From: Streptosporangiales bacterium
GTDB taxonomy: Bacteria > Actinomycetota > Actinomycetes > Streptosporangiales > WHST01
NCBI GenBank assembly: GCA_009379825.1
Contig: WHTA01000037.1
Coordinates: 1-50,355, forward strand
DNA length: 50,355 bases
Reading direction: 5' to 3'
The notes under the pieces are model-generated. The model saw only the letters and a list, made by a program, of their open reading frames with translations. It searched no databases and was not told where the DNA came from. This document shows positions 33,432 through 48,776 of the stretch, one piece after another. Position numbers and translations under genes: made by a program. Every line of letters begins with the position of its first letter. The stretch's first letter is position 1.

Positions 33432-34401
33432 CTACGTGACGGTGTCGGCGGCGCAGCGGAAGCCGGGGTTGCCGGTGGAGCTGTCGGGGGTGTTGTGGGT
33501 GCGAGCGGCGACGCGGTAGCGGTTGCAGTGGGAGTGGTGGCACAGGTAGCTGCCGCCGCGGATCACCCGGGAGTCGCCAGTGTCCGGGCCCGTCGGGTTC
33601 TTCCTGGTCTCGGGGCGGTCGTCGGCGTGCCAGGTGGTGTTCCAGTAGTCGGCGCACCACTCCCAGACGTTGCCGGCGACCTCGTAGAGCCCGTACCCGT
33701 TGGGGGCGAACGATTTCACTGGTGCGGTGCCGAGATGGCCGTCGTCGGCGGTGTTGTGGGTGGGGGACCGGCCCTGCCAGATGTTGCACCGCCAGCGTCC
33801 CCGTGGGGTGAGCTCGTCGCCCCACGCGTAGCGGGCGCGTTCGAGGCCGCCGCGCGCGGCGCGTGCCCATTCCGTTTCGGTGGGGAGTCGCTTGCCGGCC
33901 CAGGCGGCGTAGGCGTACGCGTCGCGCCAGGAGACGTGCATCACGGGGTGCTGCGGCCGGTTGGTGATCGAAGAGTCGGGGCCTTCCGGGGTGCGTCAGG
34001 TGGCGCCTTCGACGGCGAGCCACCATGGCGCGTCGGGAATGGTCGCGTCCAGGACGTCGTGCCTGTGGTCCGGGTCGACGAACGCCCCGAACACGAACGA
34101 CCAGCGGAACTGTTCGGCGTCGGTGACGTAGCCGGTCGCCTTCACGAACGCGGCGAACTGTCGGGTTGGCCACCGTGGTCGGGTCGATGTGGAACGGCGC
34201 CAGCTCGAGGGTACGCACCGGCCCCTCGCCGTCGTCGGGGAAGGCGTCGGCATCGTCGCCACCCATCTGGAACTGCCCGCCGGGGATTCGCACCATCTTC
34301 CTGGTGACCGCACGCGGGTCACGTTCGGGCGGAGTGAGCCCGAGCTCGACCTCGGCGACGTCGAGGTCCCGTCCTGAGGACGGGCCGCAGCATGCCGACA
34401 T
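33432..34401 (-). pseudogene. formylglycine-generating enzyme (SUMF1/FGE family), broken
   Basis: ATG 34401 gives MSACCGPSSG, then MVRIPGGQFQMGGDDADAF and the typical FGE start. The frame is lost near 34165, resumes as RQFAAFVKATGYVTDAEQF and FRWSFVFG, then meets TGA at 33996-33998 where FGE proteins have Trp (GATWRTPEGP). It continues as [28 protein letters not shown] and [19 protein letters not shown] with both active-site cysteines. FGE is a copper enzyme that converts a sulfatase Cys to formylglycine. No sulfatase is visible nearby. The start overlaps the csoR stop. Confidence 0.88.
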
Positions 34402-34755: not shown

Positions 34756-35503
34756 ATGAGCGCGGTGTCGTGGTCGAGGTACGTGACCGGGTTCCACGAT
34801 TCCCGGCCTGGGATCACCGAGCGAGTGCTGCGGCGTGCCCGTTCGGCCGTCGGCGACCCGTACGACTGGCTGTTGGCCGCTGTTCCTGGCGAGGCGACGG
34901 TGCTCGACCTGGTGTGCGGTAGCGCGCCGCTGTCGCTGCGGGCTGGCCAGCCCTATCTGGGCTTGGACGCCTCCGCTGCGAAGCTGCGTGCGGCTAGGGA
35001 CCGGGGTGCCACGGTCGTACGGGGATCCGCGGATGCGCTGCCGATACGGACGTCCGCCGTGGACGCGGTCGCGTGCGATGGCGTTGCAGGTCGTCGAGCC
35101 GTTGGCGGGCGTGCTCGCCGAGATCGGGCGGGTGCTGGCGGCTGGCGGGCGGTTGGTCGCGACGCTGCCGGCGGACGGACCGTTGCGGCCGACCGACGTC
35201 GTCGAGGTCGGCGTGCTGCTCGCTGCGCTGGGTCGACGGCTCGGCTACCCCAACGATGCCGACTTGCGGCGGCTGCCGGAGCTGTTCGTTTCGGCCGGCC
35301 TCCGTCCGGTTGTGGACGAGCGGCGCAGGTTCGAGTACCGGCTCGACGACGCCGCGGCCGTCGACGTGTTCCTGTCCTCCCTGTACTTGCCTGGTATCGC
35401 GCCGGCGCGGTACGCGGCGGCACGGCGATGGCTGCGTGTCCTGGTGCGGGCGGGCGCCGTGCTGCCGGTGCCGATTCGGCGGGTGGTCGCGGTCCGTACG
35501 TGA
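34756..35503 (+). pseudogene. class I SAM-dependent methyltransferase, frameshifted
   Basis: The first frame encodes RYVTGFHDSRPGITERVL, the SAM motif VLDLVCGSAPLSL, YLGLDASAAKL and VRGSADALPIRTSAVDAVAC. The frame is lost near 35080, where two bases appear to be missing. The next frame continues MALQVVEPLAGVLAEIGRVLAAGGRLVATLP and a C-terminal lid to TGA 35501. The motif order is that of the methyltransferase_11 group. The substrate is unknown. Sharing the CsoR operator suggests a metal-responsive gene. Confidence 0.78.
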
Positions 35504-35541: not shown

Positions 35542-35571
35542 GGTCGAGATTTGCGGAAGGGGGTACAGCGC

Positions 35572-35871
35572 ATGACGGTGCGAGCAAGGTGGAACGGCGT
35601 GGTGTTGGCGGAGAGCGACGAGACGCGGATGGTGGAGGGCAACCACTATTTTCCGCCGGCGTCGGTGCGGCAGGAGTGTCTCGCCAAGACCAGGCTGCAT
35701 ACCGTGTGTCCGTGGAAGGGCGTCGCGTCCTATTACACGGTCACCGTAGACGGTGTGTCGAACAAGAATGCCGCGTGGTACTACCCGAGGCCGTTCCCGC
35801 TGGCGCGGAAGATCAAGAACTACGTTGCGTTCCATGGTGACGTCGAGATCGTCGAAATGGGGGAGTCATGA
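35572..35871 (+). CDS. DUF427 family protein
   Basis: The 99-residue protein fits DUF427 throughout: ARWNGVVLAESDETRMVEGNHYFPP in outline, TVCPWKGVASYYTVTVDG, NAAWYYPRPFPLARKIKNYVAFHG. The family is a small beta-barrel of unknown role found widely in actinomycetes. ATG 35572 is chosen over an in-frame ATG 7 codons earlier because it follows GGAAGGGGG and removes a basic leader not seen in the family. The stop overlaps the next start by 4 nt. Confidence 0.85.
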   Translation: MTVRARWNGVVLAESDETRMVEGNHYFPPASVRQECLAKTRLHTVCPWKGVASYYTVTVDGVSNKNAAWYYPRPFPLARKIKNYVAFHGDVEIVEMGES

Positions 35872-37070
35872 CCGAGCAGGTGGACGTCGTCGTCCTCGGC
35901 ATGGGCGTCGGTGGTGAATCGGTCGCGGACACATTGGCGGGGAAGGGGCTCGACGTCGACGGCATGGCCGGGCATGCGTCGGTGACGCCGGACTGGGCGC
36001 CGGTGGCGACCAGGATCCGTGAGGAGGCGACGACCGACTGGGACGATCGCATCGCGGTGGAGCGGTTCACCGGCGCGGGTGGGACGTTCGTCCGCGGCCG
36101 TGGCCGGCTGGTCGGCACCGGCAAGGTGGAGGTCGACGGCGTGACGTACGAGGCGCGCCGCGGCGTCGTGATCGGCACCGGCACGGTGCCCGTCGTGCCG
36201 CCGGTCGACGGGCTAGCGGACACGCCGTACTGGACGAACCGTGACGCGATGAAGGCGACTGAGCCGCCGGAGTCGTTGCTGGTGCTCGGTGGCGGCGCCG
36301 TGGGTCTGGAGGTGGCGCAGGCGTTCGCCAGGTTCGGCTCGGACGTCACGGTGGTGGAGGCGCTCGACCGGCTGCTGCCGGTGGAGGAGCCCGAGGTGTC
36401 GCACGTCGTGCGGGATGCGCTGGAGCGCGACGGCATCGCCGTGCGCGCGGCCAGCCGGGCGAGCCAGGTGAGCTACGACGGTGAGCGGTTCGCCGTGAAG
36501 CTGCACGACGGCGCTGTGCTGTACGCGCAGCGGTTGCTCTACCGACTGCTCGTCCGCGGCGAGCCGGTACCCGTCGAACGGCTGGCCGCCGAGACCGGCT
36601 GGGATGCCGGGCAGCTGCGTGGTGAGCTGACCCGGCACCCCGGCACCGACTGGGACGGCGACCGGGTCGCCGGATTCAACCTCACCCTCCGTCCGACACC
36701 GCACCGGATCGCCCTCGACGGCACCACCGTGTACGCGTTCTGCGCCACCGGTGCGATGGAGATCCTGATCGCACTCGGCCGCGCCGGGACTATCGACTCG
36801 CCGTGCGCGGCAACCGGTACGAACGTGTGCGTCGAGATCACACCCGACGGCGTCGTGGTGGACCCGCCGGAGGCCGTCGTGTCGAAGGTCCGGCCGACGG
36901 GGGAGCTCGCCGACGTGCGTCGCGACGTCTGCGGCCTCGGCCACTTCTTCAGCTCACCGGACGCCGCCACCGACTGGCTGGCCCGCAATCCGGCAGGCCG
37001 GGTCGACCCGGTGGCCGACGAGTTCGAGATCACCCGGCGCGCCCTGCGCGAGGTCGGCTGGGCCGCCTAG
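35868..37070 (+). CDS. chimera: truncated FAD disulfide-oxidoreductase domain fused to MerB-like domain
   Basis: Residues 1-215 resemble flavin disulfide reductases: VDVVVLGMGVGGESVADTLAGKGLDV, GVVIGTGTVPVVPPVDGL, LLVLGGGAVGLEVAQAFARFG. The segment that should carry the CxxxxC redox pair and PSK is absent, a gap of about 35 residues after GLDV. The central and dimerisation domains are also cut off. From about residue 217 the frame passes into a MerB-like domain: LLYRLLVRGEPVPVERLAAE, FNLTLRPT, YAFC, SPCAATG, DVCGLGHFFSS. Cys96 and Cys159 of MerB are kept, but Asp99 is Gly (CATG for CALD). Activity is therefore doubtful. It may be a sensor, a mercury-binding protein or an evolutionary scar. 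Confidence 0.75.
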   Translation: MTEQVDVVVLGMGVGGESVADTLAGKGLDVDGMAGHASVTPDWAPVATRIREEATTDWDDRIAVERFTGAGGTFVRGRGRLVGTGKVEVDGVTYEARRGVVIGTGTVPVVPPVDGLADTPYWTNRDAMKATEPPESLLVLGGGAVGLEVAQAFARFGSDVTVVEALDRLLPVEEPEVSHVVRDALERDGIAVRAASRASQVSYDGERFAVKLHDGAVLYAQRLLYRLLVRGEPVPVERLAAETGWDAGQLRGELTRHPGTDWDGDRVAGFNLTLRPTPHRIALDGTTVYAFCATGAMEILIALGRAGTIDSPCAATGTNVCVEITPDGVVVDPPEAVVSKVRPTGELADVRRDVCGLGHFFSSPDAATDWLARNPAGRVDPVADEFEITRRALREVGWAA

Positions 37071-37231
37071 TCGCCCTCGTCCTCGCCGATGCCATGCTCG
37101 GCGAGGACGGACGCGACCTCGGGGCTGGGTGGCTTGCCCGCCACCCAGGCGCCGTCGGTGGCGGCACCGGCGTCGAGGAGTGCCCGTACCGTGCCCACCC
37201 GGGTCCGGTTGCGGGTCGTCACCGAGGTGCA
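37067..37231 (-). pseudogene. C-terminal remnant resembling an ankyrin-repeat protein
   Basis: The last 54 codons before TAG 37067 read RVGTVRALLDAGAATDGAW and SPEVASVLAEHGIGEDEGD, with the LLDAGA and VLAEHG spacing of ankyrin helices. No other repeat is present upstream, where a damaged peroxiredoxin begins in its place. Its TAG overlaps the TAG of the convergent chimera gene on the other strand (CTAG). It looks like a deletion junction between two genes. Confidence 0.4.
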
Positions 37232-37602
37232 GGCCGCTGCCCAGACGCCACGGGCGACGGCCGGCCAGGTTCGGGGATCGAACACCGCTTGGGTGCGGTC
37301 TCGACGCCGAACTCGACGTAGAGTTTCCCCTTCGGGTCGGCGACCACGGCGAGCGGCAGGTCGGCGTGGTACTGCGCGATCGACTCCGCGGTGGAGTGGA
37401 AGACGACGACTTCCTGGATGCCGGCAGCGGCGATCTCGTCGCGCCTGCTGGTGATGGAACGTAGGTGCAGGTTGCAGACCGGGCATCCGGCGTACCGGCG
37501 GAACTGCAGGTGTACCAACCGCTTCGGGTCGGGGATCCGGACGAGGTCGCCCCACGCGGTCTGCACGCTGTGGGTTGGCACGGTGTCGCCGGCTGCCAGT
37601 TT
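37232..37602 (-). pseudogene. peroxiredoxin-like (AhpC/TSA-type) protein, damaged at both ends
   Basis: The frame reads TKLAAGDTVP, VRIPDPKRLVHLQFRRYAGCPVCNLHLRSI with a CxxC pair, VVVFHSTAESIAQYH and LPLAVVADPKGKLYVEFGV. It then shifts near 37290 into AVFDPRTWPAVARGVWAA, after which the C-terminus is missing. The expected ATG before ACG AAA is replaced by CCG, so there is no good start; a GTG at 37581 is the only remaining one. The preceding gene's stop is also lost at this junction, implying a small deletion between them. Confidence 0.7.
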
Positions 37603-38125
37603 CGTCGGGATGCACGAGCCAGTACATCCGGTCCGACCGCGGTTGCCGCCGGACCACCACGTCGACTGTACCGCCGCCGGTCACTGTCAACCGGGTTGCG
37701 AGCTGCCTGGTCCAGGCGACGCGTTCGGCCGCCAGGTCGACCAGCGGCGCACGGTCGAGGAACCGCAGCACGGTACGTCGGGGCAGCTGCGGCAGCAGCC
37801 CGACCACGGTCAGTGTCCGGCGCTGGGCGTCCCAGCTGACCTGTGCGACCTGCTCCCACCCCCAGAGTGCCCAGCTCTCCGTACCGTCGGCACCGGTCAG
37901 GCGATGTAGTGCAGCGTCGGTGACGACGACGGACGCCTCCTCGGCGTCACAGGCGTAGGCAAGAACTCGCTCGCCGGGTGCGAGCTCACGAAGTCTGCGA
38001 ACAGCGGGCGGCCTGCGTACCTGGTTCGCCAGGTGCTCGAACGTGCGCCGCCACGCGTCCCACCATCGCCGGGTCGGCACAGGCGGGGCCGGTACGTCGA
38101 CGGCCGGGCCCGCGTGCGTAGCCAT
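37603..38125 (-). CDS. PH-like-domain protein of unknown function, stop codon lost
   Basis: About 174 residues look like native coding sequence: RRWWDAWRRTFEHLANQVRRPP, LAPGERVLAYACDAEEASVVVTDAALHRL, VSWDAQRRTLTVVGLLP, and a last block RSDRMYWLVHPDE. Alternating strands and a final helix recall bacterial PH-like folds. The frame has no stop here and runs on out of register through the peroxiredoxin, so the natural end was probably deleted. The start is ATG 38125, 6 bp after the glutaredoxin stop. Confidence 0.55.
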
Positions 38126-40056: not shown

Positions 40057-40461
40057 ATGCGTACCGGAGAGGTTGCCGCGCAGGCGAACGTGAACATCCA
40101 GACCCTGCGCTACTACGAGCGCCGGGGATTGCTTCCCGAGCCGCCGCGCCGGGCGTCCGGGTATCGGGTCTACGGACCGGACGCGGTGGAGGTCGTGCGA
40201 TTCATCAAGCGTGGGCAAGAGCTCGGCTTCAGCCTTGAGGAGATCGAGTCGTTGTTCGACCTGATGGCGGGCGGGCCCGACGACTGCGACCAGGTCCGCA
40301 ATGTCGCCCGGAGGCGTATCGCGCAGCTGGAGGCCCGGATCACCGACCTGCAGGCGATGCGCGACTCGCTCGACGAGCTGGTGGCCACCTGCCATCTGCC
40401 CCGCGCCGAACGGCACTGCCCGTTGCTCCGTGCGCTGGGTTGCATGGGACCGAGGGTGTGA
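40057..40461 (+). CDS. merR: MerR-family mercury-responsive regulator
   Basis: The 134-residue protein has the winged HTH MRTGEVAAQANVNIQTLRYYERRGLLP, then SGYRVYG and LGFSLEEIESLFDL. The long dimer helix contains CDQVRN, and the C-terminal loop ATCHLPRAERHCPLL holds two more cysteines. These match the three Hg(II)-binding cysteines of MerR (82, 117, 126 in Tn501). It should untwist the long-spacer promoters upstream of itself and at 43761-43830 when mercury binds. Confidence 0.92.
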   Translation: MRTGEVAAQANVNIQTLRYYERRGLLPEPPRRASGYRVYGPDAVEVVRFIKRGQELGFSLEEIESLFDLMAGGPDDCDQVRNVARRRIAQLEARITDLQAMRDSLDELVATCHLPRAERHCPLLRALGCMGPRV

Positions 40462-40564: not shown

Positions 40565-41521
40565 GGGGTGTCTCGACGGACGGGTCGCGATCGTCAGCGG
40601 AGCGGGCAGGGGAATCGGCCGCGAGCACGCCCTGCTGCTCGCTGCCGAGGGCGCAAAGGTGCTCGTCAACGACCTCGGGGCCGCACCCGATGGCTCCGGT
40701 GGTGACACTACGGTCGCCCAGGCGGTGGTCGACGAGATCACGGCCGAGGGTGGCCAGGCGGTGGCGAACAGCGACAGCGTCGCGGACTGGCAGGCTGCCA
40801 AGCGGATCGTCGACACGGCGGTAGAGACGTTCGGTGACCTGCACGTCGTCGTGAACAACGCCTGGCAGGGGCGTGCGCGGACGCTGCTGAACACCACCGA
40901 GCAGCTCTACGACGCGTTCTTCGCCGTGCACCTGAAGGGCAGCTTCGCGATGACGCGGTGGGCCGCCGCCTACTGGCGGGACCAGGCAGCCGTCGGTGTG
41001 GACCGGGCAATCGTCAACACCTCCTCCGGCGCCGGCCTGCACGGTACCGCCGGGTCGAGCGGGTACGCCGAGGCCAAGGCCGGCATCGCCGCGATGACGA
41101 TGGTCGCCGCGACGGAGCTGGAACCATACGGGGTGCGCGTCAACTGCATCGTGCCGACCGCCCGCACCCGCGGCAGCGACGACGTCCGCGTCCGACGTGA
41201 CTCGCTGCCGTCGTCGGTGGACGGGTTCGACGTGTTGCACCCGGGTAACGCGCACCGTTCGTCGCGTACCTGGCCACGGCGGACTGCACCTTCACCGGCC
41301 AAGTGTTCGCGGTCTCCGGCGGTTCGGTCGGCATGTACCAGGGCTGGTCGATCGCGCGCGAGGTCCGTTCCGACCACCGGTGGGCGGTCTCCGAGCTCGC
41401 CATCGCCATGGACGGCCTGCCGCGGGAGATCCCGGTACGCAAGGATGCCGGGGCGGCCATGACGGCCAGCTGCAGCGCCGAGACCGAGGCGACGCCGAAG
41501 ACCCGGTTGGGGTTCGGCTGA
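40524..41521 (+). pseudogene. short-chain dehydrogenase/reductase, start unclear and frameshifted
   Basis: The core starts LDGRVAIVSGAGRGIGREHALLLAAEGAKV with the classical TGxxxGIG-type NAD loop, then VVNNAWQGRARTLL, NTSSGAGLHG, and YAEAKAG as the catalytic YxxxK. The frame is lost near 41245, and the next frame continues FVAYLATADCTFTGQVFAVSGGSVGMYQGW to TGA 41519. No good start lies at the usual place a few residues before LDGRVA, so the 5' end is also altered. Family members oxidise steroid-like or aliphatic alcohols. One base separates it from the SMP-30 gene. Confidence 0.8.
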
Positions 41522-41522
41522 C

Positions 41523-42388
41523 ATGCCGTCGGCGGAGCAGGTGACCGACCCGGTCGTCGAGAGTACGGCGAGGGACCGGTATGGCACTCCGGCTGGCCGG
41601 GCCTGCGGTGGGTGGACATGATCGGCGGCGGCGTGTTCGAGCTGGACGCCTCGTCCGGCAGGGTGCGCAGGTTCGATCCCGGCGCGATCGTCTCGATGCT
41701 GCGGCCCACCGTCGACGGCGGTGTCGTGTTCACCGTCGAGCGGGGGATCGCCTTGGCCGACAAGGAATTCCGGTGAGTGCGGAAGTTGGGGGAGCTGTGG
41801 TCGGAGCCGGGGATCCGGATGAACGACGGTGCCTGCGACCCGGACGGCCGGTTCTACTGCGGATCCATGGCCTACGACGCCCCGCCTGCCACCGCCGCGC
41901 TGTACCGGTTGGACGGCGACGGCACCGTCACAGTCGTGCTCTCCGGCGTCACCGTGTCAAACGGACTGGCTTGGAGCCCGGACGGTGCCACCGCGTACTA
42001 CGTCGACTCGGCGACCCGGATTGTGGACGCGTTCGACTACGACACCGCGGACGGGCTGACCGACCGTAGAACCGTCCTCGCGGTTCCGCAGGACGCCGGT
42101 CTGCCGGACGGCCTCACCGTCGATGCCGACGGCGACATCTGGGTCGCGCTGATGGGTGGCTCGGCGGTCCGGCACTACACCCGGGACGGGACGCTCGCCG
42201 ACATGATCGAGCTTGCGGTCTCGCAGGTGACCGCGTGCACCTTCGGCGGCCCGAACCTGGACGAGCTGTACGTCCCCACCTCGAAGCTGAACATTGACCC
42301 CACCGAGCAACCATGGGCAGGCGCCGTGTTCCGTGCCAACCGCGGCATCTCGACGCCGAGGACCCCGCGCGAAGGGGCGGATCGATGA
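41523..42388 (+). pseudogene. SMP-30/gluconolactonase-family protein, frameshift plus nonsense codon
   Basis: ATG 41523 gives MPSAEQVTDPVVE, then the frame shifts near 41562 into YGEGPVWHSGWPGLRWVDM, GGGVFELDASSGRVRRFDPG and VDGGVVFTVERGIALADKEFR. TGA at 41774-41776 interrupts this frame, which then goes on as GIRMNDGACDPDGRFYCGSM, SNGLAWSPDGATAYYVDS, LPDGLTVDADGDIWVAL to 42388. The metal ligands of the SMP-30 propeller (Glu in YGEGP, Asn in MNDGACD, the later Asn and Asp) are still encoded. It formed an operon with the upstream SDR gene. Confidence 0.86.
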
Positions 42389-43499: not shown

Positions 43500-43754
43500 T
43501 CACCCGCGGCGCGACCGACGGCGCCGTGCCGTCGATGCCGCCCACACGACGGCGACGGCCAGCGCGAGGGTGGCGAGGACGAGGAGCCAGTTCTCTTCAA
43601 GGAACGCGCCGGCGGCACCGAGCAATCCGGCGGCGACCAGCACCGGAGCGAGGCAGCACAGCATGATGGCCATGCCGCCGCCGGCCGCGGCGAGTATTCC
43701 GCGGGAGCGACGGCCGACGATGCGTTCCTCGTCGTTGTTGTCGGTGAGCGCCAT
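43500..43754 (-). CDS. MerF-like small mercury-transport membrane protein
   Basis: The 84-residue protein has two membrane spans. The first carries a vicinal cysteine pair in MAIMLCCLAPVLVAAGLLG, the place and context of the CCFTPVL pair of MerF/MerT. The second span is NWLLVLATLALAVAVVWAA with a basic tail. The second cysteine pair of MerF is absent. ATG 43754 lies 6 nt after the -10 of a MerR-type promoter, so it should be induced by mercury and move Hg(II) inward to MerA. It is divergent from merA. The 160 bp after its stop show no convincing gene. Confidence 0.75.
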   Translation of the reverse strand: MALTDNNDEERIVGRRSRGILAAAGGGMAIMLCCLAPVLVAAGLLGAAGAFLEENWLLVLATLALAVAVVWAASTARRRRSRRG

Positions 43755-43760
43755 GCACCC

Positions 43761-43830
43761 ACTGTCCGCCCTGTACTCGGATACCGGGTCAAGGGGGCTT
43801 GACCCCGCAGTGGGGTACAGGGTGGAGGGT
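43761..43830. promoter_or_regulatory. back-to-back MerR-type promoters for merF-like gene and merA
   Basis: Minus strand: -35 TTGACC (43792-43787), 20-bp spacer with CCCGGTA-TCCGAG-TACAGGG, -10 GACAGT (43766-43761), 6 nt to ATG. Plus strand: -35 TTGACC (43799-43804), 20-bp spacer with CCCCGCA-GTGGGG-TACAGGG (43803-43822), -10 GAGGGT (43825-43830), 7 nt to the merA ATG. In both, the dyad begins 4 nt after the first base of the -35, exactly as at merR. The two -35 boxes lie 6 bp apart. Confidence 0.8.
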
Positions 43831-43837
43831 GGCAGGT

Positions 43838-45265
43838 ATGAGCGATGAGCGGTACGACCTGGCGATCGTGGGATCCGGCGGTGCGGCGTTCGCCGCGGCG
43901 ATCGCGGCGCGCGAGCGTGACCTCGCCGTGGTGATGGTCGAGTCAGGGACGATCGGCGGTACCTGCGTGAACACCGGGTGCGTGCCGAGCAAGGCCATGC
44001 TCGCGGCGGCCGAGGCCCGCCACGTAGCGGCGAGCCAGCGGTTCCCCGGTGTGCCGACCCAGGCGGGCCGGGTCGACCTCGCCGCGTTGGTGGGCGCGAA
44101 GCAGGACCTGGTCGAGGCGATGCGGGCGGAGAAGTACGTTGATCTCGCGGCCGAGTACGGCTGGAGGGTCGTGCACGGCTTCGCGCGGTTCGCCGGCGAG
44201 GCCGACGCGCCGGTGCTGGACGTGGACACCGCCGATGGACCGGTGCGGATCGACGCGGCGCAGTACCTCGTCGCGAACGGCGCGACGCCGTCCGCGCCAC
44301 CGGTGGACGGCCTGGCTGCCACCGGCTACCTGACTTCTACCACTGCGCTTGAGCTCACCGCGTTGCCGGCGTCGATGGTCGTGGTGGGTGGCAACGCCGT
44401 CGGGTTGGAGCTCGCGCAGCTGTTCGCCCGCCTCGGCGTCGACGTCACCGTCCTCGAGGCGCTCGACCGGCTCGCGCCGTTCGACGAGCCGGAGGTTTCC
44501 CATGCCCTGGCGGACGCGTTCGTAGCCGACGGCATCTCGGTCGTTACGGACGCCATGGTGACGTCGGTGCGGCGCACGGCGGCGGGCTACGTCGTAACCG
44601 TCGACGCCGAGGACCACGGTGGCGTGGAGCTGGTGGCCGAGCAGCTGGTGGTCGCGACGGGACGTCGCCCGGCCACGGAGCACCTTGGTCTCGACGGTGT
44701 CGGTGTGAAGACCGACGAGCGCGGGGCGGTGGTCGTTGACGAGTGCCAGCGCACCGCCAACCCGCGGATCTGGGCCGCGGGTGACGTGACCGGCGGTCCT
44801 CAGTTCGTCTACGTCGCCGCCGGGCAGGGGACAGCGGCGGTTGACAACGCGTTCGCCGACGCGCGGCGCACACTCCACTACGCGAGCCTGCCCAGGGTGA
44901 CGTTCACCTCGCCTGCGATCGCCGCGGTCGGGCTGACGGCGGCCGAGGCGGCCGCGCACGGGCTGGACGTCGACAGCCGGGTGCTCCCGCTCGACCGGGT
45001 TCCCCGCGCGATCGTCGATGGCGACACCCGAGGTCTGGTGAAGATCGTCGCGGACCGGGCGACGGGCCGGGTGGTCGGTGTGTCCATGCTCGCGCATGGT
45101 GCCGGCGACGCCATCCTCGCCGCCGTGTACGCCGTCAAGGCCGGCATGACCGTGCAGCAGGTCGCCGACACCTGGGCGCCGTACCTCACCGCGGCCGAGG
45201 CGCTCAAGCTCGCCGCGCAGACGTTCACTCGTGACGTCAGCAAGCTCTCGTGCTGCGCCTCGTGA
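43838..45265 (+). CDS. merA: mercuric reductase
   Basis: The 475-residue flavoprotein has VGSGGAAFAAAIAARERDLAVVMVE for FAD and the redox pair in GGTCVNTGCVPSK. VVGGNAVGLELAQLFARLG binds NADPH, and RIWAAGDVTGGPQFVYVAA is the FAD ribityl site. The C-terminal SKLSCCAS carries the vicinal Cys pair that hands Hg(II) to the active site; the MerA tyrosine lies in WAPYLTAAEALKLA. It reduces Hg(II) to Hg(0). There is no N-terminal MerP-like domain. ATG 43838 fits the leaderless promoter; earlier in-frame codons lie within it. It overlaps merB by 4 nt. Confidence 0.95.
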   Translation: MSDERYDLAIVGSGGAAFAAAIAARERDLAVVMVESGTIGGTCVNTGCVPSKAMLAAAEARHVAASQRFPGVPTQAGRVDLAALVGAKQDLVEAMRAEKYVDLAAEYGWRVVHGFARFAGEADAPVLDVDTADGPVRIDAAQYLVANGATPSAPPVDGLAATGYLTSTTALELTALPASMVVVGGNAVGLELAQLFARLGVDVTVLEALDRLAPFDEPEVSHALADAFVADGISVVTDAMVTSVRRTAAGYVVTVDAEDHGGVELVAEQLVVATGRRPATEHLGLDGVGVKTDERGAVVVDECQRTANPRIWAAGDVTGGPQFVYVAAGQGTAAVDNAFADARRTLHYASLPRVTFTSPAIAAVGLTAAEAAAHGLDVDSRVLPLDRVPRAIVDGDTRGLVKIVADRATGRVVGVSMLAHGAGDAILAAVYAVKAGMTVQQVADTWAPYLTAAEALKLAAQTFTRDVSKLSCCAS

Positions 45266-45903
45266 ACGGAGTCGAAACCGTGGACCTCCAGCTGGACAAG
45301 TGCACGGCGACCGCCGCGCTGAGCGCCGAAGCACGACAGGTGCACGTATACGTGCTGCGCACCTTCGCCGCGACCGGCCGCGCACCGAGCAGGGCCGACC
45401 TGCGACGCGTCGCCGCCGACCGGGGCTGCGACCCGGCAATGGTGCTGACCGAACTCGCCGAACGCGACGTAGTGGCGGTCGACGCTCGCGGTGAGCTCCG
45501 TGCCGCCTACCCGTTCTCGCCGACACCGACCGCGATCCAGGTCACCTGGGACGGCGGGCCGACGGTGTACGCGATGTGCGCCGTGGATGCGCTTGGGATG
45601 TCCGCGATGCTCGACCGTCCGGTCACTATCACTGCGACCGAACCGGACACCGGCAACGCGGTGACCGTCCACGTCGACGGCGATCGCGCGGACTGGACGC
45701 CGGCATCCGCCGTCGTGTTTGCGGGTGCCACCGATGACTCCTGCTGTCCCTCGGTGGACCGGACGTGCGGCGCCATCAACTTCTTCACCACGTCGGAGGC
45801 GGCCGGCGACTGGGCGAGCCGGCATCCCGATGTCTCCGGCGCCGTCCTCGACCGCGCGACGGCATTGGCGCAAGCAGTCGCGGAGTTCGGCGCCATGCTG
45901 TAA
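45262..45903 (+). CDS. merB: organomercurial lyase (alkylmercury lyase)
   Basis: The 213-residue protein shows an N-terminal winged-helix part (EARQVHVYVLRTFAATGRAPSR) and the MerB catalytic part. YAMCAVDALGMSAML holds the equivalents of Cys96 and Asp99; RTCGAINFFTTSEAAGDW holds Cys159. All three catalytic residues are present, unlike in the chimera at 35868. It splits C-Hg bonds and passes Hg(II) to MerA. GTG 45262 overlaps the merA stop (GTGA), so MerA and MerB are made together. The 190 bp after its stop contain no gene I can support. Confidence 0.9.
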   Translation: MNGVETVDLQLDKCTATAALSAEARQVHVYVLRTFAATGRAPSRADLRRVAADRGCDPAMVLTELAERDVVAVDARGELRAAYPFSPTPTAIQVTWDGGPTVYAMCAVDALGMSAMLDRPVTITATEPDTGNAVTVHVDGDRADWTPASAVVFAGATDDSCCPSVDRTCGAINFFTTSEAAGDWASRHPDVSGAVLDRATALAQAVAEFGAML

Positions 45904-47330: not shown

Positions 47331-48020
47331 ATGGCGACCCGTCCGTCGGCAGTGGCGTTCGACGTGGTCGAGACGCTGATGTCGTTGCAGCCGCTGGAGG
47401 CACGGTTGGAAACGGTCGGGCAACCGGCGTCCGTCCTGCCGGCGTGGTTCGCACGGCTGCTGCTTTACGGGGTCGGGCTGTCCGCGGCCGGCGACTACGT
47501 GCCCTTCCCTGAGGCCGCGGCCGAGGCGCTGCGTGCCGTCAGCGGGTACCGGCTGTCCGACGAGGACGTGGCGTATGTGCTCGCTGGGTTCGGGCAGCTG
47601 CCCGCCCACCCGGACGCAGAACCTGCGATCAGGCGGCTGGCCGACGCGGGGGTACGGGTGGTTTGCCTCACCAACGGGAGCGCCGACGTCACGGCGGCGT
47701 TCCTGGCCCGCGCCGGGGCGGCGCACCTCGTCGAGCGGGTGATCAGCACGGCGGAGGTGAACAGCTGGAAGCCGCCGGCCCGCGTCTACCGCCACGCGCT
47801 CGACGTGTTGGAGCTGCCGGCCGAGCGGGTGGCACTCGTCGCCGTCCACGCCTGGGACTGCCACGGAGCCAAGCGGGCCGGCCTCACCACCGGATGGGCG
47901 AGCCGCGCCGAAGGCGGCTACGGTGCACTGTTCGCCCCCGCCGACGTCAGCGGCGCCGACCTGGTCGAGGTCGCCGAGGGACTGCTGGCCCTCCCCGAGG
48001 GGGCCGGCGATGCGCGGTGA
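47331..48020 (+). CDS. haloacid dehalogenase type II-like HAD hydrolase
   Basis: The 229-residue protein has HAD motif I as VAFDVVETLMSL (nucleophile Asp), motif II in VVCLTNGSADVT, the motif III Lys in NSWKPPARVY and a motif IV-like block VALVAVHAWDCHGA. The FDxVETL form and the cap domain (residues 20-90) are those of L-2-haloacid dehalogenase-like HADs. It may remove halide from 2-haloacids. Its stop overlaps the start of the DehI-like gene by 4 nt. Confidence 0.83.
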   Translation: MATRPSAVAFDVVETLMSLQPLEARLETVGQPASVLPAWFARLLLYGVGLSAAGDYVPFPEAAAEALRAVSGYRLSDEDVAYVLAGFGQLPAHPDAEPAIRRLADAGVRVVCLTNGSADVTAAFLARAGAAHLVERVISTAEVNSWKPPARVYRHALDVLELPAERVALVAVHAWDCHGAKRAGLTTGWASRAEGGYGALFAPADVSGADLVEVAEGLLALPEGAGDAR

Positions 48021-48776
48021 CGACGGGGACGTGGCGGTACCCGATGGTGGAACCCGGCGCGGCGACGGGCAAGGTGGCGGCCGTGTACGCGCAGATCGCC
48101 GAGGTGATGCCGATCGTGCCGAGCCTGTTCAAGTCGCTGGCGGCGTGCCCGCCGTACCTGGCACTGGCGTGGGACCAGGCAGCGCCGGCGTTGCGCGACG
48201 ACATCCACCTGGCGGCCGCGACGGCCTCGCCGACTCGGTGCGCACCGCCGCCGTGCCACCGGCGGACGCGAGGGTACGGGAGGCGATGGCGGAGTTCATG
48301 TCGCCGTTGAGCTGGATGCTGCTGGTCTTCGCGGGGCTGCGAGAAGCGCTGGCCGGCCACCTCGACGACGTCCCCGCCGATAACCGGCTACCAGCAGCGA
48401 CCGGACCGATGCAGCCTCGCCGGTGGGTACCTACGCCCGCCGAGAGCGGCGCGCAGCAGGTGTACGGGGACATTCGCGCCGCGCTGCGCACGCCGCTGGT
48501 CAACAGCATCTGGCTGAGCCTGGCCGGCCGAGGTCTCCTCGACGCGGCCTGGCACGAAGTAGCCGGCCAAGTGCCGCAGACCCGGCAGCGGGCCGCTGCG
48601 CTGGGTCAGCGGGCGACACAGACCGCGCAAGAGCTGGCCTGGCCTGTGGTCGTCAGCCCGCGGCCTCGGCCGAGGCCGGCATCGCCGACGCAAGCCCCGG
48701 CATGGCGGCGATCCTGGACTGCTACTTCGCGACGCTGCCGCGGGTGCTCACGTTGGTGGCCTGCTGCGCAGGGTAG
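48017..48776 (+). pseudogene. DehI-type haloacid dehalogenase, two frameshifts
   Basis: GTG 48017 gives MVEPGAATGKVAAVYAQIAE, VMPIVPSLFKSLAACPPYLALAWDQ. The frame shifts near 48235 into VREAMAEFMSPLSWMLLVFAGLREAL, the helical region and TPLVNSIWLSLAG. It shifts again near 48665 into a third frame ending ILDCYFATLPRVLTLVACCAG and TAG 48774. This layout is that of DehI, which removes halide from both D- and L-2-haloacids by direct water attack. It is unrelated to the HAD enzyme encoded just before. Two shifts make function unlikely unless the read is wrong. Confidence 0.75.

Follow-up and report, generated by a model that had tools for sequence, protein, structure and literature searches.

A single reading frame joins a truncated non-MerA oxidoreductase to a MerB-like domain with glycine at position 99

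The window, the whole 50,355-nucleotide stretch of contig WHTA01000037.1 from a Streptosporangiales bacterium, encodes a 400-residue protein (P0001) in which the N-terminal part of a disulfide oxidoreductase passes directly into a MerB-like domain with glycine in place of the catalytic aspartate. The ORF is probably a chance in-frame deletion fusion of fairly recent date, a largely neutral relic within a decaying part of a mercury-resistance region that would be dead in both catalytic senses. Three roles were first proposed for it (mercury sequestration, mercury sensing or a neutral fusion); the last of these is favoured, as no second fusion was found in the collections searched, and sequestration is less favoured though three cysteines are kept.

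One frame, two families

The original prediction described a frame open over 400 codons that is coupled to a preceding DUF427 gene by ATGA, and both the frame and the overlap were confirmed. The parts are listed by their positions in the window.

35551..35871, forward strand: DUF427 (PF04248) gene, overlapping the chimeric ORF via ATGA
35868..37070, forward strand: chimeric ORF (P0001), single open frame, 400 aa
35868..35957, forward strand: residues 1-30, N-terminal FAD-binding (GxGxxG) segment of a pyridine-nucleotide disulfide oxidoreductase (Pfam PF07992 at 6-225; alignment with intact relatives)
35955..35960, forward strand: point at which 36 codons (redox CxxxxC segment) are missing, from comparison with L089/L110
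35958..36539, forward strand: residues 31-224, remainder of the first FAD segment and NAD(P)-binding domain (Pfam PF00070 at 137-214; AlphaFold)
36531..36542, forward strand: fusion junction RLL/Y(RLL), where family identity switches without a linker
36540..37067, forward strand: residues 225-400, MerB-like half (Pfam PF12324 at 222-270 and PF03243 at 272-390; AlphaFold; Foldseek)
36741..36752, forward strand: Cys292-Ala-Thr-Gly295, equivalent to MerB Cys96 to position 99, with Gly replacing the catalytic Asp
36804..36806, forward strand: Cys313, equivalent of MerB Cys117 (alignment)
36930..36932, forward strand: Cys355, equivalent of MerB Cys159 (alignment)

Pfam recognises Pyr_redox_2 (6-225), Pyr_redox (137-214), the HTH_15 domain of MerB (222-270) and MerB itself (272-390). 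Around the junction (residues 222-228) intact oxidoreductases read RLLVSVGR or RLLVAVGR onward, and the corresponding entry into MerB proteins reads, for instance, LLRLLARGEPV. The GC content of third codon positions (GC3) is 0.93 over residues 31-224 and 0.89 over residues 225-400, next to 0.90 for the merA gene of the window; because GC by codon position is coding-type in both halves, the 400-codon frame is not a chance product of GC-rich DNA. Two separate genes, raised at the outset as an objection to the fusion, are ruled out by one stop-free frame with high GC3 on either side of the junction. An in-frame GTG (residue 217) and an in-frame TTG (residue 223) lie just upstream of the MerB half, but inspection by eye revealed no clear ribosome site before either, and internal initiation at these codons is unlikely.

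What remains of the flavoprotein

Profile matches derive residues 1-224 from a pyridine-nucleotide disulfide oxidoreductase other than MerA. Its nearest relatives (66-71% identity) are the intact protein L021 from a Propionibacteriales MAG and proteins of the genomes G078 (locus L109), G131, G099, G244, G252 and G267, all six from one family, to which the genome with the sister of the MerB half (G185) also belongs. On the MerA model TIGR02053 (cut-off 454.45 bits) P0001 scores 122.3 and L021 300.9 bits; since even the intact relative stays below the cut-off, the flavin half is not the MerA fragment that it had been taken for. L021 scores 297.3 bits on the lipoamide dehydrogenase model (cut-off 408.8), and no NCBIfam model reached its cut-off to name this oxidoreductase.

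In the alignment, L089/L110 reads GLDV-VGIEG..GGECPYWGCIPSK..RRV-DGMAGH where P0001 reads GLDV-DGMAGH, so that of the stretch GLDVVGIEG..LVGGECPYWGCIPSKM...RRVDGMAGH 36 codons are gone, in frame. With them went the two redox cysteines and the last part of the FAD Rossmann strand, in agreement with the redox-cysteine segment having been called absent. The segment (GGECPY..C.P.K) is present in 5/5 relatives inspected, and intact L021, unlike P0001, has the redox segment. V-V-G-I and V-D-G-M lie in the same frame in L089, 108 nt apart. An origin of the loss by slippage between repeats was rejected, as the best DNA match (9/12) is not above chance by a rough estimate.

Judged against L021, P0001 lacks the redox segment, the second FAD segment and the dimerisation domain. 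L021 has a full Pyr_redox_2 and a dimerisation domain (PF02852 at 345-452), of which the first is incomplete in P0001 and the second unmatched by Pfam, as had been predicted. The NAD(P)-binding Rossmann domain, in contrast, had been reported missing and is present, being matched by PF00070 at 137-214 and modelled by AlphaFold with means of 82-97 in the 10-residue blocks over residues 121-220.

AlphaFold was run on each half by itself, since in a joint alignment MerB rows had been paired with the flavin part. The flavin half (38-row alignment) gave a mean pLDDT of 78.6 and a pTM of 0.57, with residues 34-58 and 104-109 below 50, and among its best 50 Foldseek rows MerA and dihydrolipoamide dehydrogenases score TM 0.55-0.63 by query length. 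The MerB half (29-row alignment) reached a mean pLDDT of 95.2 and a pTM of 0.89, and ranks 1-8 of its Foldseek matches are all MerB crystal structures (TM 0.89-0.91 by query length). To the question whether both halves fold, the models thus answer with a confident fold for the MerB half and a poorly predicted one for the FAD part.

A MerB fold with glycine at position 99

The catalytic aspartate of MerB, Asp99, is the proton donor in C-Hg cleavage. P0001 keeps the equivalents of Cys96, Cys117 and Cys159 as Cys292, Cys313 and Cys355 and has Gly295 at position 99, which bears out the predicted retention of Cys96 and Cys159 with Gly for Asp99 and adds a third cysteine. Asp occupies position 99 in 41/41 other homologues covering the site (42 in the fetched loci, one of which does not cover it). 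The five other MerBs of the same genome all have Asp. Four of these lie on two other contigs, at L102 (G000 contig C25, 14000-28000) and L103 (contig C17); one cluster also contains a merA-like gene, together with a MerR-like frame that a stop interrupts.

The sister of the MerB half in the tree is the MerB of G185 (L096, 6840-7472), a standalone protein of 210 aa with about 50% identity, which keeps Asp99 and the N-terminal region, of which about 30 residues are missing from P0001. Both Pfam cut-offs are passed by the MerB half (PF03243 82.4 against 27 bits; PF12324 35.6 against 27.2 bits). Curated MerB models place P0001 below their cut-offs (NF033555 165 against 200 bits; PRK13239 146.7 against 193 bits), and on the NCBIfam model the G185 MerB just passes with 200.5 bits. 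The other merB-like gene of the window, which contains the Asp, fails the same 200-bit cut-off by more (65 bits), so the cut-off says little about activity.

The closest folds of the MerB half include mercury-bound D99S MerB (5c0t) and mercury-bound MerB2 (5c17), which makes Hg(II) binding without Asp99 plausible on structural modelling. C-Hg cleavage without Asp99 is unlikely, to judge from the residues present. According to the available portion of a computational study, Asp99 matters considerably for the energetics with which mercury is released (PMC4525700).

Isolation of the fusion

A search with the full-length fusion returned no second copy among the matches listed from 61 genomes, the source genome included, and a 232 aa query spanning the junction returned no second fusion among the matches listed from 394 genomes, again including its own; the two genome sets overlap. 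Seven weak rows of the 394-genome search that cross the junction proved, on retrieval of their loci, to be plain oxidoreductases, one stretch ending at a contig end; the other weak rows, outside these seven, extend at most about 45 residues beyond the junction. A pattern search of genome contigs, which reaches close relatives only, gave 44 loci, none matching past residue 244. The plasmid collection (72,556 records) held no fusion, the sole record covering at least 80% (H1) having separate merB and oxidoreductase genes. No fusion was found in either of the two genus-mates searched and no relative among viral contigs, and in 139 loci no ORF other than that of the window and its copies matches both halves. 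Searches with the MerB half only (396 genomes; 22 genomes) served to find MerB relatives. The original prediction held that a lack of homologues with both halves together would mark the ORF as a chance deletion fusion, and no such homologue was found in the genomes searched, the plasmid collection or the ORFs of the fetched loci.

Two sets of candidates for further fusions were rejected. Some merB matches sit in long open frames, the extra length being a neighbour's shadow frame or an N-terminal extension; the eight long merB frames (310-874 codons) were judged by eye, and none scored with both halves. A row from the source genome that covers residues 157-391 runs across neighbouring merA and merB genes and is interrupted by a stop. 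Separately, a thioredoxin-like N-terminal region is, as judged by eye, joined to a MerB-like C-terminus at L096 5881-6843 and at L107 1954-3369 and 11407-12438, a recurrent fusion that occurs in two genomes, G185 and G072.

Origin of the parts and state of the neighbourhood

In G078 a DUF427 gene (66.7% identical) overlaps the start of an intact oxidoreductase via TGATG, where the overlap in the window is ATGA. Because the overlap in G078 is with an intact oxidoreductase, the DUF427 coupling belongs to the oxidoreductase and merB is the newcomer; at least in one relative, the combination of DUF427 with the oxidoreductase is thus the older one. Across the 74 loci with an oxidoreductase of this family (bit score > 170), some of which overlap the same place and whose flanks differ in length, DUF427 occurs in 4/74 and merB in 0/74. 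Two of the four are the same G078 place, and the other two are uncoupled.

The surroundings of the chimeric ORF are a mercury/thiol neighbourhood, with a gene for a ResA/TlpA-like thioredoxin (38.7-39.2 kb), then a CcdA-like gene (39.2-40.0 kb) that owes its name to similarity with an annotated CcdA in L115, and a gene for a MerR-family regulator (40057-40461; TIGR02051 127.5 against 150.85 bits). A merA gene (548.9 against 454.45 bits) and a second merB-like gene (MerB Pfam 116 against 27 bits) lie at 43.8-45.9 kb. Within 43545-45903 the merA overlaps this Asp-containing merB-like gene, which has Glu at the Cys117 position ('117alt' type), and a sub-threshold MerE-like reading frame diverges from the pair. 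The mer cluster of L115 (Rhodococcus qingshengii pCP2, NZ_CP088908) has CcdA, TlpA, merA, merB, two further FAD oxidoreductases and glucose-6-phosphate dehydrogenase, a gene set that suggests linked NADPH/thiol supply.

Several genes near the ORF are broken between frames. The FGE-sulfatase domain is split into profile positions 3-46 and 86-254 and the SMP-30 domain into 14-66 and 83-245; a methyltransferase is split near 35075, weakly so as both pieces fall under the Pfam cut-off. An AhpC-like gene is probably also split, as is a short-chain dehydrogenase gene near 41.25 kb, and one unnamed gene appears frameshifted besides these five. The apparently frameshifted genes lie at:

33438..34371, reverse strand
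about 35075, forward strand
37219..38125, reverse strand
41243..41777, forward strand
48014..48761, forward strand

Split frames thus cluster in about 33-49 kb, with few in 1-32 kb (coding track by eye, with the Pfam check on the 33-49 kb side only), and the mostly unbroken coding track of 1-32 kb favours regional decay over genome-wide assembly error.

Recent damage or continued constraint

Columns at least 90% conserved among relatives were compared with P0001, the missing segment being set aside. Departures number 0/74 columns in residues 1-224 (64 sequences with P0001) and 8/24 in the MerB half (22 sequences with P0001), a difference with a Fisher p of 5e-6 between column sets that come from families of different depth. 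We rejected this difference as proof of faster decay of the MerB half, because the sister MerB of G185 itself departs in 6/27 columns (p 0.53 against P0001); much of the excess is clade divergence. The 0/74 bounds free drift of residues 1-224 since the damage at about 0.04 substitutions per site (95%), so that either the damage is recent or residues 1-224 are still constrained.

Branch lengths resemble those of the sisters, at 0.211 against 0.202 for the oxidoreductase half and 0.547 against 0.496 for the MerB half. Terminal branches rank 21/64 and 5/22, respectively, with no clear acceleration. The intact frame, the absence of losses in conserved columns of the first half, the sister-like branches and the good MerB fold fit a recent fusion and continued selection equally.

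Interpretation and alternatives

The course of events that we infer starts from the arrangement seen in one relative, in which DUF427 is coupled to an oxidoreductase of the NAD(P)/FAD disulfide type, intact and distinct from MerA. One in-frame loss would have deleted the 36 codons with the redox cysteines; another would have joined the oxidoreductase, right after its NAD(P) domain, to merB, deleting the oxidoreductase C-terminus and about 30 N-terminal merB codons. Reduction of disulfides or of Hg(II) is not expected of the product, from which dimerisation domain, second FAD segment and redox cysteines are all missing, and lacking Asp99 it should not cleave C-Hg efficiently. If made, the protein could still bind Hg(II) or R-Hg through two cysteines of its MerB fold. 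A promoter scan found 0 sites where 0.1 are expected by chance.

For such a relic we count the absence of a second fusion from the collections searched, the DUF427 overlap with an intact oxidoreductase in G078, the lack of merB in the 74 oxidoreductase loci, the loss of both the redox segment and Asp99, the poor FAD model, the split neighbours, the five other MerBs with Asp and the nearby merA with its second merB-like gene. Against it stands the frame, intact over 400 codons although two deletions both had to be in frame, together with the unaltered conserved columns of residues 1-224, branches no longer than those of sisters, the confidently predicted MerB fold and the three kept cysteines.

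The main rival is a mercury-binding protein, which is possible though doubtful: a lyase-dead MerB half would hold Hg(II) or organomercury on Cys292/Cys355 and buffer it for the product of the nearby merA, with the NAD(P)-binding half as a platform for fold, oligomerisation or nucleotide binding. The kept cysteines and predicted fold would suit this, as would the mercury-bound D99S and MerB2 structures among the closest folds, the remainder of residues 1-224 without conserved-column loss, the shared region with merA, a merB-like gene and a MerR-family regulator, and the natural 99Ser MerBs that, in the available text of PMC8261052, occur in genomes that also have canonical MerB. The fusion is nevertheless known from a single genome, its FAD half is damaged and its neighbours are split between frames. 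That the ORF is a new layout, a 99Gly MerB with three cysteines set on an NAD(P)-binding domain without redox cysteines and co-opted beside merA/merB as a mercury buffer or sensor, we regard as unlikely, albeit compatible with the data since residues 1-224 show no conserved-column loss and the MerB fold is confident.

It is quite improbable that the contig joins oxidoreductase and merB loci that are not adjacent in the cell. The genome is a draft of 169 contigs with 3.33% contamination, the fusion was seen once, and several of the nearby frameshifts could be assembly errors; but two independent in-frame events would both have to be artefacts, frame and GC3 continue through the junction, and the split frames are concentrated on one side of the window. 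An active bifunctional MerBA-like enzyme, whose flavoprotein half would pass on or reduce mercury freed by the MerB half, has a precedent in existing MerBA fusions, with a predicted fold of MerB tethered to MerA (PMC11227200, in excerpt), but is highly improbable for a protein of a non-MerA flavin family without redox cysteines, second FAD segment and dimerisation domain and with Gly for Asp99.

Relation to known systems and meaning

The available portion of PMC11227200 describes MerBA fusions of alpha-proteobacteria, including Rhizobium leguminosarum STf07 and Mesorhizobium sp., which, like P0001, have an alkylmercury lyase and a flavoprotein of the disulfide-reductase family on one chain. 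As given there, MerB is N-terminal and is followed by a linker and a complete MerA, with active-site Cys/Asp/Cys. In P0001 the order is reversed, both parts are incomplete, the flavoprotein is truncated and not MerA, and Asp has become Gly, which sets it outside the MerBA definition. The 99Ser MerB-like variants, of which PMC8261052 in its available part counts 13, all from Firmicutes with canonical MerB in the same genome, share with P0001 the MerB fold, the kept Cys pair, the replacement of Asp99 and the company of Asp-MerBs (5c17 and 5c0t being structures of this kind); P0001 differs in having Gly instead of Ser and in being fused.

The titles and abstract openings listed for the mer, MerB-fusion and DUF427 literature contain no flavoprotein-then-MerB fusion and no 99Gly MerB. 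The original statement that no protein of such a layout had been described therefore stands for this literature as regards a truncated non-MerA flavoprotein with a 99Gly MerB, and novelty is not thereby proven; it does not stand for reductase/MerB fusions as such, which the available text of PMC11227200 reports as MerBA.

If the ORF is a relic, it shows how gene fusions and losses of catalytic residues arise in genomes with multiple merB genes, and matters little beyond the fact that survey counts of 'MerB' can include dead copies. If it is functional, it would be a natural lyase-less mercury-binding MerB and would help to ask what Asp99 contributes and whether MerB may act as a mercury carrier.
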